From Candidatus Kryptobacter tengchongensis (GTDB lineage: Bacteria; Bacteroidota; Ignavibacteria; Kryptoniales; Kryptoniaceae): a DNA stretch of 64,000 nucleotides. The stretch spans positions 427,001-491,000 of the forward strand of contig FAON01000012.1 in assembly GCA_001485605.1 (NCBI GenBank), read 5' to 3'. Position numbers and translations under genes: made by a program. This document shows positions 4,412-62,768 of the stretch, piece after piece; position 1 is the stretch's first letter; the number at the start of each line of letters is the position of its first letter. The notes beneath the pieces were generated by a model, which saw nothing but the letters and a program-made list of their open reading frames with translations, searched no databases and was not told where the DNA came from.

Positions 4412-7400
4412 ATGAAGGTTAAGTCATTGTTTGTTTTAATTTTATTTCTCATAACTGGAAATTTACTCGCTCAATCCGTTGAAAATTATATTTGGCCATT
4501 CACAGTTGGTCCTACAAGTAAAGGGGTTCAGGTAACAAAGGTTAAGATTACAGCTGGTAGTTCTGCTCTTTCAATTAATAGTTTAACACTTACTTATAAT
4601 ACCAGTGGAATTAATCTGAGTGACTTTGATTCAGTATCTATCTACAGAAGTGATGTGTCTGGTTCAAGATTGTTAGCTACAAAAACAGGCTTAAGTGGAG
4701 GTGATGGTACTACTATTGGCTATAATGTTAATATCCAGGTTGATGCTAATAAGAGTACTTATTTGTACATCGTTGTTTCACTTAAAGCACCGGTTAACAC
4801 AACTGGCACTTTTAGATTCAATGTGACTCAAACTAACCCACCTGTAGCAATAACACAAGATAATGATAATATTACAGTTTCTTCAACTTATTTCGCTTTT
4901 TTGAGCGCGGAAGCATTGGATGAAAATAGCGATGGGAAGGTTGAGAAGATAAGGATAAGAATGAACGATCAGATTAATGATGCAACTTTAGTACCATCAT
5001 CATTTACAGTTAAAAGAAGAACACAGGCTGATGAAACAGAATCAACCATTAATGTAAGCTCTGTTTCAACGGGTGCGACTGCAAATGATAATATTTTTGA
5101 AATTATCCTTGCCAATCCTGCTCCAAAAAGCACAGGTGATTACTATGAGGTTAATTTTGATGGGAGCACTCCAACGATTAGAAACCTCTCTGGTACATTA
5201 ACTGCACAAACGCAATTTTTAGCCACGGTTGATAAAGCATTACCTGTCATTGTTAGAGTTACCACGAAAGATAATGATAGTAACGGAAAACTTGATGCTC
5301 TTGATTTTGAATTCAGCGAAAATGTTGTTATTGGTGATTCATCAGCGGCTGATGGAATGGATAATTTAGTTGTTACCAATGTTGTTATTAATAATAGTGA
5401 TTACTCGTCAACGGGTTTTGTTACAGTTAAATCTTTTGCATTAAATGAAGTTGGGTATAATACGGGCGTAACCCCAGCAGTAACATACAGTCGGGCAGGA
5501 AAGAGTACGATTTTGGATCGTGAGGGGCAGGAAATAAGAGATGGGCTAAGTGTGACATCAGTTGATGAGGCAAAGCCTCGGCTCGTCAAGATATGGACAC
5601 TTGATACTAATAAAGATGGTAAACTTGATAAATTTGCAGCGATATTTTCTGAACCGATAAGAATCCCGGCTACTGATACTGTTGGGGGCAAGAATGATAC
5701 TATTAGAGTTTTTAAAATCAATTCTTCAACAGGTGCTGGGAATTATTCTGTTAGATATGAGAAAAATCAATATGGTGGTTTTATAAGACTTGCGACGGCT
5801 CCGCTTACGCTTGGGGATTCTATCCTTGTTGATATAATTGGTCCCGGGTATTATGATACGGGGATTTCGTTTAATGTTGCCTTTGATACTTCCCAAGCAT
5901 TGAGTAACAGACAAAATACTTATTATACAATCCTTGATGCAGCTGGAAACATTGCGGATGCAATTTCTTCTATTACAACCACTGATGGGGCAGAGCCTGT
6001 TCTTTTGAGTGCAGTTACACAAGATACTGACGGAAATGGTAAAATTGATAGATTTTTGCTCACATTTAGTGAAAAGCTTGATACTACTGGCATTACATCA
6101 TTGCTTTCATCGGGTATGACATTTACAACTCAATTGCCTTTCAGATCTGGACAAACATATAATATAAAGACGGTGTATCCAGCGGTTGATTTGATTCAAG
6201 CCCCTAATGACCAACATATATTAAAAGTAACAGTTGAAAAGCTTGGTGGTCAAGATGTTCCATTTAATACTGCGGATAGGCCGGTATTTTCATATACCCC
6301 GGGTAATCTGAAAGATGCTGCGGGTAATAAGACATCAGCTATAACAGGATTTGTACTTTCTGACAACGCAGCTCCGGTTTTGTATTGGGCTGTGTTCTAT
6401 GATGATGATAAGAATGGGAAATTTGATAAAGTTTTGTTGAGATTTACCGAAGATATATATAACCCAAGCATTACGGAATTGAACAATTTAGATGGTGTTC
6501 GGGTAAATGCAAAAGTTAAAGTGTTTAGTTATAACTCACAAATAAGTGTAGTTCCAGGTTCATTTGTGGAACAGTATAATGCACAAACGTTAACTTCGGA
6601 TATATGGGTTAATTTGGATACATCTGATCTTGATATACCGCTTGGGACAGATCCGGTCGCTCAGGGTATGAGGGTTGAATATGTGCAAGATGGAACTACA
6701 TCAGACCTTGTTGATGCGAATAATCAGGCTATAGTTGTCAGCACAACATTGTCGGGAGGTGCTATAAAAGACGCGGCGAAACCGCTTGTTCATAAAGCAG
6801 AAACGATGGATCTTAATAAGAATGGTAAGATTGATCATTACAAGATTTATTTCACTGAAAAAGTCAAAGATAGCTCATTTGATGGCTTTACAACAGATTC
6901 AACAATTGGGAATGTGGTAAGCAATTGGGTTGTGAAGGGATATACCGGTGTTAGGTTTGATCCAACTGTTTCTGGTGATGTGAAAAATGATAGTATAATT
7001 TACATTGCATTTAATGAAAGTGGCGCTTTTGATACCGATAAAAAACCAGATGTTCTGCTTAGCAATTCCACGCTTGTTGATTTAGCAGATACCACTGATT
7101 TTTCGCCAAGTTTTGCCGATTCAATTAAAATTGGTGTTGAAGAGTTAGATCGCGCAAACCCGGTATTATATCAAGCTATTGGTCAGGTTAATAGCAAGAA
7201 TTTGAGAATTTGGTTTAGCGAACCAGTAGTATCAGGCGTAGCGCCTACACAATTTATATATGATAATGAAGGTACAGGTAATGATAGGGCAAAGAATGTT
7301 GTGGGTGTGACAGGAAGTGGTGCGGTTTATACGCTTACTACTGATGATACATTAACGGTTGACGATGTGGAAAGGGATTCGTTAGGGGTGCTTCCAAGTA

Positions 7401-42541: not shown

Positions 42542-43034
42542 GTGTGAATCGAACCTGTGAGGGATTGAAACTTTAAAGCGTTTTTAACCCACGAATAGTC
42601 ATCTTTGTGTGAATCGAACCTGTGAGGGATTGAAACAAATACTTCACGGGTATAAATATAACTGGCGTTTCCTGTGTGAATTGAACCTGTGAGGGATTGA
42701 AACTAAACACTTAACAAAACTCCATCGGGCAATTTCTCAGTGTGAATTGAACCTGTGAGGGATTGAAACAATTTATTCCCATAAACCCCCAAATGTTCAT
42801 ACGCGTGTGAATTGAACCTGTGAGGGATTGAAACTAACTTGCCCACGCCTTCATCGCAGACCCAAACGCATGTGTGAATTGAACCTGTGAGGGATTGAAA
42901 CTCGGTAAGTATTTTCTCAAGAGAAGGTATTTTAGCAAGTGTGAATTGAACCTGTGAGGGATTGAAACAGTTGACAAATTGAAAAAATATCATTATATTT
43001 ATTAGTGTGAATTGAATTCGTGAGGGATTGAGAT
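42542..43034 (+). CRISPR. CRISPR array 1: 8 repeats of 30 nt, 7 spacers
   Basis: Repeats start at 42542, 42607, 42674, 42740, 42805, 42872, 42939 and a degenerate last one at 43005. Each begins GTGTGAAT and ends GGGATTGAAAC; the last eight bases, ATTGAAAC, are the classic crRNA 5' handle, which agrees with a leader on the left. Spacers are 35-37 nt. The first two repeats read GAATCGAACC, the next five GAATTGAACC. The last repeat has several changes and marks the old end. No cas gene lies in the window, so the array depends on cas genes elsewhere. Confidence 0.97.
42971..42999 (+). promoter_or_regulatory. promoter-like sequence inside the last spacer of array 1
   Basis: TTGACA (42971-42976), 17 bases, TATATT (42994-42999), the same form as the other promoters in this window, lying wholly within the last spacer (42969-43004) and pointing at the gene at 43122. 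It may serve that gene. Confidence 0.55.
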
Positions 43035-46118: not shown

Positions 46119-46738
46119 GTGTGAATCGAACTTGTGAGGGATTGAAACAGATTGTCAATTTCGATAAAGCCATAACGAGTGTATAGTGTGAATCGAACCT
46201 GTGAGGGATTGAAACGCTTATATACACTTGATTAATTGAATAATGCCGTCCAGTGTGAATCGAACCTGTGAGGGATTGAAACGCTTGTTTCAATTCCTGT
46301 TCAACCTTTTCAATTTCAGGTGTGAATCGAACCTGTGAGGGATTGAAACAGATATTTCAAAATTTTCTCCACCTGTTGCTTTTCAGGTGTGAATCGAACC
46401 TGTGAGGGATTGAAACTTTTAACTGAATCGGGTGTCTCCGTAACGGGTGCTAGTGTGAATCGAACCTGTGAGGGATTGAAACTTGTTCAAGCCTCCCGTA
46501 ACATAATGGGGGATGGAAGTGTGAATCGAACCTGTGAGGGATTGAAACCTTAATCTCGATTATTCTCTCGTTAAATTTGCGATACTGTGTGAATCGAACC
46601 TGTGAGGGATTGAAACAGTTGCTTTAAAGGTAAAAGCTTCAAAATCAAAACAAGTGTGAATCGAACCTGTGAGGGATTGAAACGTGGTTATATTTGCGTT
46701 GTTGACTTACAGCGTTTTTATGTGTGAATCGTACCTGT

Positions 46739-46760
46739 CCCTAAGGGATCCCCTCGGGAT
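46739..46760 (+). repeat. 22-nt palindromic insert in CRISPR repeat 10 of array 2
   Basis: Inserted between CCTGT and GAGGG, the loop of the repeat hairpin. It begins CCCTAAGGGAT and ends CTCGGGAT and consists of two short palindromes, TCCC-TAA-GGGA and TCCC-CTC-GGGA. Confidence 0.85.
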
Positions 46761-46825
46761 GAGGGATTGAAACACTTTTGTTGGGGGCGTTATAAAGGTA
46801 CCCCCAACGTGTGAATCGTACCTGT

Positions 46826-46867
46826 CCCTAAGGGATCCCCCTAAGGGGTCCTTAGAACCTTCGGGAT
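46826..46867 (+). repeat. 42-nt palindromic insert in CRISPR repeat 11 of array 2
   Basis: Same insertion point as in repeat 10. Begins CCCTAAGGGATCCCCCTAAGG, continues with GGTCCTTAGAACC and ends TTCGGGAT. It is built from CCCTAAGGG-type palindromic units. Confidence 0.85.
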
Positions 46868-46968
46868 GAGGGCTTGAAACTTAAAATTGCCATAAAGAAA
46901 ATCTCTAACGATTGGGTGTGAATCGTACCTGTGAGGGATTGAAACAAAAACAAACGGAGAGATAAATT

Positions 46969-47487
46969 ATGTACTGGTTAACTTTTACCATCACATTGAT
47001 AACTGTGGTTTCATTGGGCTGGTTGAAGATCACCAAAACTTGGTGGGATCTTCTTTGGTTTGGGGGATTTTTAATCTTATGGGTTAGTATTCGGTATCTC
47101 GGGTATAAAATTAAGGTGAAACCTCTTATAGAAAAAGTAAATGAATTACTTATGATATATGAGTCGTATAAATCAAAATCACAAAATCCTTCTAGTTTCA
47201 TGGAAATAATAGATAGATATCAAAATTATCTCAAACCTACAGTAAGTGCAATTGGTTATATACTTAACTATTTTGGTCATCCATTATTGGGTTCAACAAT
47301 AGGGTTTGTTGGGCGTGAAGTTATAAATTTTTTAGCGGAGCGTGCTAAAAGTAAAAGTAAATATGAGCGGGAGCTTTTGGAACAAATAAAAACCCTCCAA
47401 AACGAGATTGAGCGAGCTAAAAGTCGGATGAAACTATCTATTGTAGCAATGCAACTTACAACTGTGGCTTTGTATTCATTTTGGTGA
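46969..47487 (+). CDS. small membrane protein with coiled coil, unknown function
   Basis: 172 residues, not recognised. Two N-terminal membrane spans (LTFTITLITVVSLGWL and LLWFGGFLILWVSIRYLG) are followed by a cytoplasmic helical part, a possible third hydrophobic segment (YILNYFGHPLLGSTIGFVG) and a charged coiled coil (KSKYERELLEQIKTLQNEIERAKSRM), then a hydrophobic C-terminus. The start has an ACGGAGAG site that begins right after the last repeat of CRISPR array 2. Position suggests transcription from the CRISPR leader or a nearby unseen promoter. A link to defence is possible but not shown. Confidence 0.65.
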   Translation: MYWLTFTITLITVVSLGWLKITKTWWDLLWFGGFLILWVSIRYLGYKIKVKPLIEKVNELLMIYESYKSKSQNPSSFMEIIDRYQNYLKPTVSAIGYILNYFGHPLLGSTIGFVGREVINFLAERAKSKSKYERELLEQIKTLQNEIERAKSRMKLSIVAMQLTTVALYSFW

Positions 47488-47540
47488 CATTTCTCCTTAG
47501 ATAAGGATATAGCGAAGTGATCCCCTTAGGAATTTGTTTA

Positions 47541-47671
47541 AGGTGTTGTTTTACCTTGCATGTGAATCGGACCTGTCCCTAAGGGATTCCTCTAAGGTCC
47601 AAGGGGCTCTCCTAAGGAGTCCATAGGACCTTAGGAGGGTCCTTAGGACCTTCGGGATGAGGGATTAAAAC
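47541..47671 (+). CRISPR. one-repeat CRISPR relic with leader end and 82-nt insert
   Basis: A single altered repeat: ATGTGAATCGGACCTGT (47560-47576) and GAGGGATTAAAAC (47659-47671), split by an insert at 47577-47658. The bases before it (GTGTTGTTTTACCTTGC) match the leader ends of arrays 1 and 2 (GTTTTGTTTTACCGTGG). The promoter part of the leader is gone, replaced by palindromic sequence (TCCTTAGATAAGGA at 47494-47507). No spacer follows; decayed coding sequence begins at once. Confidence 0.8.
47577..47658 (+). repeat. 82-nt palindromic insert in the CRISPR relic
   Basis: Same site as the inserts in array 2. Begins CCCTAAGGGATTCCTCTAAGG and ends ACCTTCGGGAT, with internal palindromes such as CTCCTAAGGAG and GGTCCTTAGGACC. 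It is the longest of the series 22, 42 and 82 nt. Confidence 0.8.
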
Positions 47672-61610: not shown

Positions 61611-62768
61611 ATGGCAAATACAGTTTTAAAGACGGAAAAGAAACGAGGTTTTATATTTGCATGCACGGATAAAAGTGAAGGCGATTTTTTAAAAAATTTG
61701 ATTTTTGCTACAAATAGAACATATGCGTACAAAGTTTCAGCAATTAGGAAGGGTGATTTCATTTTTCTTTACAATCTTGACACGGATACGATTTATGGAA
61801 CATTTATAGCAAAAAGCGATGGTTTATATGATAAATCACTTCCAATTTTCGGCGGGAAATATCCATATTATGTAGAAGTTGAACCTTTGGGTGAAATTGT
61901 AAAAAAGTCTGGCGCAAGTAAAATTTTTAAAAAGCTTCATATAACATGGAAAGATATTTTAACTAATAAAGGGGTTGAGATATTAAATTTTCTCATTCGT
62001 GGCGAAACTGTTATTTTCAATGGTGAGAATTTAACTGATGAATCTTTTAGACCTCCAATCTTTTCTACAACATTGTGGGATTACCCAAGACAAAGTTATG
62101 GGGACACACCAAAGGGCGATAATAAATATCCAGGCGTAACCCCGGCATTTATAATCTATAATTTAATTCACAGATACACTGAACCTGGGGATTTAGTTTG
62201 TGACCCTATGGCTGGTTCAGGAACTACGATTGATGTTTGCAAGGAAGAAAAGCGAAAGGTTATCGCCTTTGATATTGTTCCAACCAGGTCTGATATCATT
62301 CAAGCAGATGCAAGAAATCTTCCTTTGAAAGATAATTCGGTTGATATGATTTTCATTGATTCACCATATGGAGACAATATAAAATATAATGACCATCCTC
62401 TAAATATCGGGCATATACCCGCAAGTGAAGATAAGTTTTACGATGAGCTTGAGAAGGTGATGGTTGAGTGCCATAGAGTTTTAAAGGATGAGAAAATTTT
62501 AGCGTGGCTTATTGGAGACCAATGGGCAAAGGGAATTTTTATTCCTGTTGGTTTTAAGGTTTACGAGAGGTTGACGAAATACTTTGAGCCGGTTGATGTC
62601 ATTTGCGTTGTAAGGCGGAATCAGTCCTCAAATACACCATTTTGGCACAGTCAGGCAATCAAACATAACTTTTACTTAAGGGGATTTAAATATCTTATCA
62701 TCGTGAGAAAAACTCAGGCGAGGAAGGATAAGAAAGTCAAGATAAAGTGGGGGTATTATGAAAGATAA
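61611..62768 (+). CDS. DNA methyltransferase with N-terminal DCD-like (PUA-fold) domain
   Basis: 385 residues. Residues about 10-85 resemble the DCD domain: FIFACTDKSEGDFLKNLIFA, KGDFIFLYNLDTDTIYGTFIA, KSDGLYDK and then FGGKYPYYVEV. From about residue 145 comes an amino-methyltransferase: the SAM motif DPMAGSGTT (198-206), ADARNLPLKDNSVDMIF and the catalytic DSPYGD (250-255, in place of DPPY or SPPY). It should methylate an exocyclic amine of A or C; the choice is not clear. It overlaps the restriction endonuclease gene by 11 bases, so the pair is a type II restriction-modification system. The N-terminal domain may read modified DNA (inference). Confidence 0.82.
   Translation: MANTVLKTEKKRGFIFACTDKSEGDFLKNLIFATNRTYAYKVSAIRKGDFIFLYNLDTDTIYGTFIAKSDGLYDKSLPIFGGKYPYYVEVEPLGEIVKKSGASKIFKKLHITWKDILTNKGVEILNFLIRGETVIFNGENLTDESFRPPIFSTTLWDYPRQSYGDTPKGDNKYPGVTPAFIIYNLIHRYTEPGDLVCDPMAGSGTTIDVCKEEKRKVIAFDIVPTRSDIIQADARNLPLKDNSVDMIFIDSPYGDNIKYNDHPLNIGHIPASEDKFYDELEKVMVECHRVLKDEKILAWLIGDQWAKGIFIPVGFKVYERLTKYFEPVDVICVVRRNQSSNTPFWHSQAIKHNFYLRGFKYLIIVRKTQARKDKKVKIKWGYYER

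Follow-up and report, generated by a model that had tools for sequence, protein, structure and literature searches.

Two repeats near the leader-distal end of a CRISPR array of Candidatus Kryptobacter tengchongensis, and a relic repeat downstream of them, are interrupted by palindromic inserts of 22, 42 and 82 nt. This raises the question of where the inserts came from and why all of them break the repeat at the same point. We addressed this question for a 64,000-nt stretch of contig FAON01000012.1 (positions 427,001 to 491,000, hereafter the window) and for related sequences in other public genomes. We consider it fairly probable that the inserts are dispersed quasi-palindromic insertion elements of ~22 bp that hit the repeat loop, that nested insertion lengthened them, and that some were copied along with the array.

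The window contains two arrays of the same 30-nt repeat, GTGTGAATCGAACCTGTGAGGGATTGAAAC, each preceded on the forward strand by a conserved leader (Table 1). Counted from the leader-distal end of array 2, the second repeat carries the 42-nt insert and the third the 22-nt insert. A type I-B cas operon (Cas1b, Cas2, Cas3, Cas4, Cas5t and Cst2) is encoded at the start of the same contig, adjoining an array with the same repeat. Cas genes next to the window arrays themselves were ruled out, the neighbours being ThiI, peptidases and other genes. Searches against Rfam returned no match for the inserts and only a weak match of the repeat to CRISPR-DR2. Aligned with three other leaders of its own genome, the remnant upstream of the relic repeat at 47560 scored higher than all 500 shuffles. 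Because a leader-like stretch precedes it, this repeat seems to have opened an array that is now dead, rather than being a stray one. Just inside the remnant, ATCCCCTTAGGAA (47510-47535) resembles another small palindrome insertion. Small lone, cargo-like genes were also seen directly behind old insert-bearing or distal repeats, both in the window (46969-47487, no family) and in a second species of the genus, G003 (L275:5485-5916, no family, and 6498-6974, an HTH regulator).

Table 1 CRISPR arrays, inserts and neighbouring features of the window (C1 to C11, contigs of the same genome).
Feature	Position	Strand	Description
CRISPR array 1	42542..43034	+	8 repeats, 0 inserts; comparison array
CRISPR array 2	46119..46945	+	12 repeats; upstream leader; from repeat parsing and leader similarity
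Repeat with 22-nt palindromic insert	46722..46773	+	T-variant repeat GAATCGTACC
22-nt insert TCCCTAAGGGATCCCCTCGGGA	46738..46759	+	Exact match to dispersed family pattern TCCCNAAGGGATCCCNTNGGGA
Repeat with 42-nt insert	46809..46880	+	
42-nt insert	46825..46866	+	22-nt unit plus 20 nt near its centre; module GGGTCCTTAGRACCTTCGGGA; basis includes direct comparison
Final repeat of array 2, no insert (empty site)	46916..46945	+	Same T variant
172-aa ORF between array 2 end and relic array	46969..47487	+	Without family match
Leader-like remnant	47535..47559	+	20/25 identical to leader ends of three other arrays
Relic repeat with 82-nt insert	47560..47671	+	
82-nt insert	47576..47657	+	23-34-nt exact words in common with palindromic elements on C1, C3, C4, C9 and C11

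In all three cases, the insert separates the 30-nt repeat into the same halves, GTGTGAATCGNACCTGT and GAGGGATTGAAAC. The split point is CCTG^TGAGGG, for which CCTG / TCCC...GGGA / TGAGGG is an equally valid register. Each insert starts with TCCCTAAGGGAT and ends with TCGGGA, and the exact 12-mer TCCCTAAGGGAT occurs at only these three places in the whole 2.68-Mb genome (0 for the backwards control). The sequence-only reading had described inserts of 22 and 42 nt, and an 82-nt insert in a relic, at an identical point and with a shared start and end; every checkable detail of this description was right.

The 22-nt unit is not confined to this genome. Among the matches listed, its pattern TCCCNAAGGGATCCCNTNGGGA was present in more than 117 stretches of public genomes, where chance would give about two by our own estimate (19 fixed bases, 257 Gb). 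The carriers among these matches belong to Bacteroidota, Ignavibacteria, Calditrichia, Marinimicrobia, Desantisbacteria, Ratteibacteria, Patescibacteria and others, and rich genomes hold up to ~29 copies, the number in a Desantisbacteria genome. In a phylum-wide sample, the pattern was found in 12 of 395 genomes, all from the window's class or closer, with none for the reversed-pattern control. The viral contigs scanned for the family contained 0 copies. A sister palindrome family, TCCCNAAGGGATCGCTTYGCCGA, forms a dense cluster on a single contig of genome G001 (contig C16, L171:10000-20000). The earlier proposal of a small palindromic mobile element is supported both by this dispersal across many bacteria and by the existence of clean empty sites.

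Where empty counterparts of the inserted sites were found, they join exactly across the 22 nt, and target duplication is absent. Such sites were recovered for CRISPR repeats and for copies of tRNA-Pro, tRNA-Ser and tRNA-His; the loci that have them include L077, L106, L124 and L192. The tRNA-Ser copies are split in the D-loop (twice at L077, at 4001 and 4414, with an intact gene nearby, and at L112:6148-6169, judged by position), in the anticodon loop (L106:711-732, also with an intact gene nearby) or in the T-loop (L124:1579). A tRNA-His is split in its T-loop (L111:7913-7934), and removing the 22-mer restores the tRNA-His prediction. In the window's own genome (contig C7, ~62,100-62,470; L336:1420-1830), an intact tRNA-Pro is flanked by two degenerate copies with inserts of exactly 22 nt. 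One of these lies in the T-loop at GGTTC^; the other lies at the junction of D-stem and anticodon-stem, which is not a hairpin loop and counts against a loop rule. The GGTTC^ bond was hit in three different tRNAs of three organisms (the tRNA-Pro above, L124 and L111), and a structural target is therefore directly testable. More generally, clean empty sites in tRNA genes and CRISPR repeats make the insertion rule measurable.

At least three of the four bases of a CTTG motif beside the insertion point matched in 36 of 79 distinct sites (7.8 expected) and in 14 of 32 held-out sites (3.3 expected), some of the latter being different places in genomes also represented in the first set. Left and right scores were uncorrelated, and the motif is therefore one-sided; the flank logo displays it, and empty sites have it as well. 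Perfect stems closing over the insertion point were also enriched, both those of at least 5 bp (36 of 111 distinct sites vs 14.6 expected) and those of at least 6 bp (21 of 111 vs 5.0; held-out sites, 7 of 32 vs 1.1). By contrast, an RNA loop test based on minimum free energy (MFE) placed 23 sites in hairpin loops vs 18.8 at control positions, which is not significant, and another comparison of this kind gave 41% of sites vs 37% of controls. The idea that the element targets hairpin loops thus survived in part: the CRISPR inserts all sit in the loop and T-, D- and anticodon loops of tRNAs are hit, but since the perfect-stem test was enriched and the MFE test was not, a loop preference finds support only as local inverted repeats. 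The CTTG-like motif is the stronger determinant of the site.

The CRISPR repeats of G003 provided a second view of the same insertion point. Here, several old repeats on independent contigs are split at this very base by 22-nt inserts, and the insert, TCCCGAAGGGATCCCTTAGGGA, is of the reverse-complement type of the window's TCCCTAAGGGATCCCCTCGGGA, both fitting TCCCNAAGGGATCCCNTNGGGA. One insert lies in the last repeat of an array (C15) and another near the distal end of an array in which inserted and empty repeats alternate (C25). On C5, a decayed distal tail contains further insert-bearing repeats, several in number, which follow each other every ~88-91 nt with spacer-length gaps. Among the 681 intact repeats obtained by half-repeat parsing of all fetched arrays, every insert was located at CCTG^TGAGG and none elsewhere (the family-wide pattern search for inserted repeats excluded GAGGG). 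Counted without the C25 repeat, the inserts occupy the oldest, most leader-distal repeats. The C25 repeat departs from this pattern; it lies upstream of the shared tail by three repeats.

These arrangements probably reflect a mix of recurrent insertion and copying with the array. Recurrent insertion is favoured because inserted and empty repeats alternate, both in C25 and in array 2, where the empty repeat at 46916 is older than the inserted one at 46809. Copying is favoured by the periodic tail of G003, by two repeats of different arrays that have changes in common inside as well as outside the insert, and by the exact 22-mers of the window's genome and of G003, whose restriction to CRISPR repeats favours copying within arrays over repeated arrival from a genome-wide pool. 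Copying might even account for all of the inserted repeats: a palindrome would have entered an ancestral leader-proximal repeat once, Cas1-Cas2 would have duplicated the whole 52-nt repeat, and the short repeat would have returned by loss or recombination. We regard this as a serious possibility, as the insert-bearing repeats of the decayed tail keep their period with normal spacers between them, and two repeats of different arrays share the repeat-body change GAATTGCA together with the insert change GGAA. However, losses or recombination are then needed to explain the alternation, and the two species carry the inserts in opposite orientations, while array 2 by itself has inserts of different sizes.

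The longer inserts bear on a different alternative, namely growth in place, which the sequence-only reading had offered beside a mobile element. Template switching at the hairpin during replication would, in that case, have lengthened the repeat's own palindrome without any mobile element. The lengths 22, 42 and 82 obey L' = 2L-2, which may be coincidence, the inserts are composed of similar small palindromes, and their size order matches the position toward the old end. Nevertheless, we judge growth in place unlikely, since the same 22-mer occurs at unrelated sites and in several phyla with clean empty sites, and for the core 22-mer it is largely refuted. Nor is it needed for the 82-nt insert, whose long exact words recur in dispersed palindromes elsewhere in the genome. 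The 21-nt module GGGTCCTTAGGACCTTCGGGA is found again on C1 and in genome G001, and related elements include 22-mers within 22-mers (L054). Given that the 82-nt insert shares modules with other loci and that 22-mers lie inside 22-mers, nested insertion of dispersed units would explain the size series better. Long mosaics of small nested palindromes within a recurring repeat, CCCCCTCTCTAAAATTTAGAGAG^GGGGAATTAAAGGGGGTGAG, were observed at L291, L293, L299 and L303 (contigs C11, C4 and C1 of the window's genome).

We then considered whether the extended repeats could be functional. As the earlier reading had anticipated, the 30-nt repeat is predicted to fold as RNA (-4.9 kcal/mol) with a CCU/AGG stem and the insertion point in the loop; as DNA it scarcely folds (-0.8 kcal/mol). 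The base of this stem is predicted to stay intact in all three lengthened forms, in agreement with the proposed longer hairpin on the same base, and only the 82-nt insert is unusually stable for its composition (z of -4.1, with no shuffle as stable; z of about 0 for the 22- and 42-nt inserts). Because the repeat folds as RNA and scarcely as DNA, and because tRNA loops are hit, insertion might have taken an RNA-level route. It is very improbable that the long repeat was retained to serve crRNA processing or to act as an insulator or terminator. Such a role would fit the preserved outer stems, the 8-nt tag ATTGAAAC, which is unbroken where the insert is 22 nt long, and the stably folding 82-nt form, but the carriers are confined to distal repeats that are old and partly decayed, the 22- and 42-nt forms do not exceed shuffles in stability, and none of the repeats is insert-bearing in the arrays examined of other genomes in the genus. 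That the inserts change Cas6 processing is a conjecture. Finally, an assembly or sequencing artefact can be practically dismissed: palindromes and repeats are difficult to assemble and array contigs are broken in several genomes, but independent assemblies of another species have the insert at the identical base, in the opposite orientation, and the same family is present in many public genomes.

Insertion of a dispersed element, combined with copying, could have proceeded as follows. A copy of the 22-bp unit would enter DNA cleanly beside a short CTTG-like motif, without target duplication, and often where the flanks can pair, for example in the loop of a CRISPR repeat, a tRNA arm or another palindromic sequence. 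For this genus, such a site would be the type I-B repeat loop CCTG^TGAGGG. Further palindromic units would then insert into the first insert, giving 42 and 82 nt. Inserted repeats may persist among the old leader-distal repeats, where selection on crRNAs is presumably weak, and some were probably copied together with their insert during array growth. Actual movement, like the order of events, is what we infer from these patterns; no present/absent allele was seen between otherwise identical genomes, which counts against this reading.

As to the enzymology, single-strand insertion of the HUH/Y1 type is our best guess, although a rather doubtful one, suggested by the absence of target duplication together with a one-sided short motif, the signature of IS200/IS605-type elements. 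A Y1_Tnp match was absent in six of the seven genomes of the genus, including G003. Among carriers of the 22-mer, most have a Y1 transposase, as do non-carriers, and G003 and G001 have none. None of the 20 Y1 loci examined was flanked by two 22-mers, with one lone 22-mer near L306. A REP-associated tyrosine transposase (RAYT) was rejected as the mobiliser, as the RAYT of the same genome has different, GTAG-type REPs and no Y1 gene is accompanied by a pair of 22-mers. This single RAYT (NF047646; contig C14, L176:1020-2190) resides amid a cluster of GTAG-type REPs (GTAGGTGCACCCTTTAGGGTGCG, CGCAGGCTAAAGCCTGCGGCTACC). More speculatively still, there might exist a class of ~22-bp bacterial mobile DNA, spanning several phyla, that inserts without target duplication into the loops of structured-RNA genes (CRISPR repeats and the T-, D- and anticodon loops of tRNAs) as well as its own hairpin. 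RNA structure, and not DNA sequence, might be its guide, and Cas1-Cas2 could afterwards duplicate inserted repeats whole.

The family looks like mobile DNA of a largely overlooked kind, with hairpin-forming sequences as its recurrent targets. It suggests that, beyond the GTAG/CGTC REP families, there are minimal mobile palindromes that are widespread and easily missed. Runs of ~52-nt repeats with normal spacers also raise the question of whether Cas1-Cas2 duplicates a loop-inserted repeat and how Cas6 handles it. Our literature search for palindromes in CRISPR repeats, or for palindromes that target loops, returned only papers on REP/RAYT and on mitochondrial hairpin elements.

Among known systems, type I-B CRISPR repeats (with Cas1b, Cas3, Cas5t and Cst2 on the same contig) are the host sequence of the inserts. 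REPs and REPINs with their RAYTs resemble the 22-mer family in being dispersed, non-coding palindromes of 20-40 nt, present in many copies and nested or clustered, and are thought to move as single strands. REPs are, however, defined by a GTAG/GTGG or CGTC head and by their link to a RAYT (PMC2817692, PMC3733652), whereas the flank logo of the 22-mers has no such head and they flank no RAYT gene. IS200/IS605 elements, mobilized by the HUH Y1 transposase TnpA, insert as single strands without target duplication at a short one-sided motif (PMC2817692), which for IS608 is a tetranucleotide (PMC5934647). The 22-mers share both features, a likeness of sequence signature, but they are 22 nt long and geneless, and Y1 is undetectable in most of the genus. 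The GC clusters and hairpin elements of yeast, fungal and sponge mitochondria are likewise tiny and dispersed in intergenic regions, sometimes inside rRNA genes (PMC2800124). Their sequences are unrelated to the 22-mers, and they belong to organelles rather than bacteria, without CRISPR targets. The palindromic elements of Rickettsia are ~100-150 bp long and lie mostly in ORFs. Like them, the 22-mers are palindromic and inserted in gene sequences, but their unit is 22 bp and their sites are RNA-encoding and intergenic.
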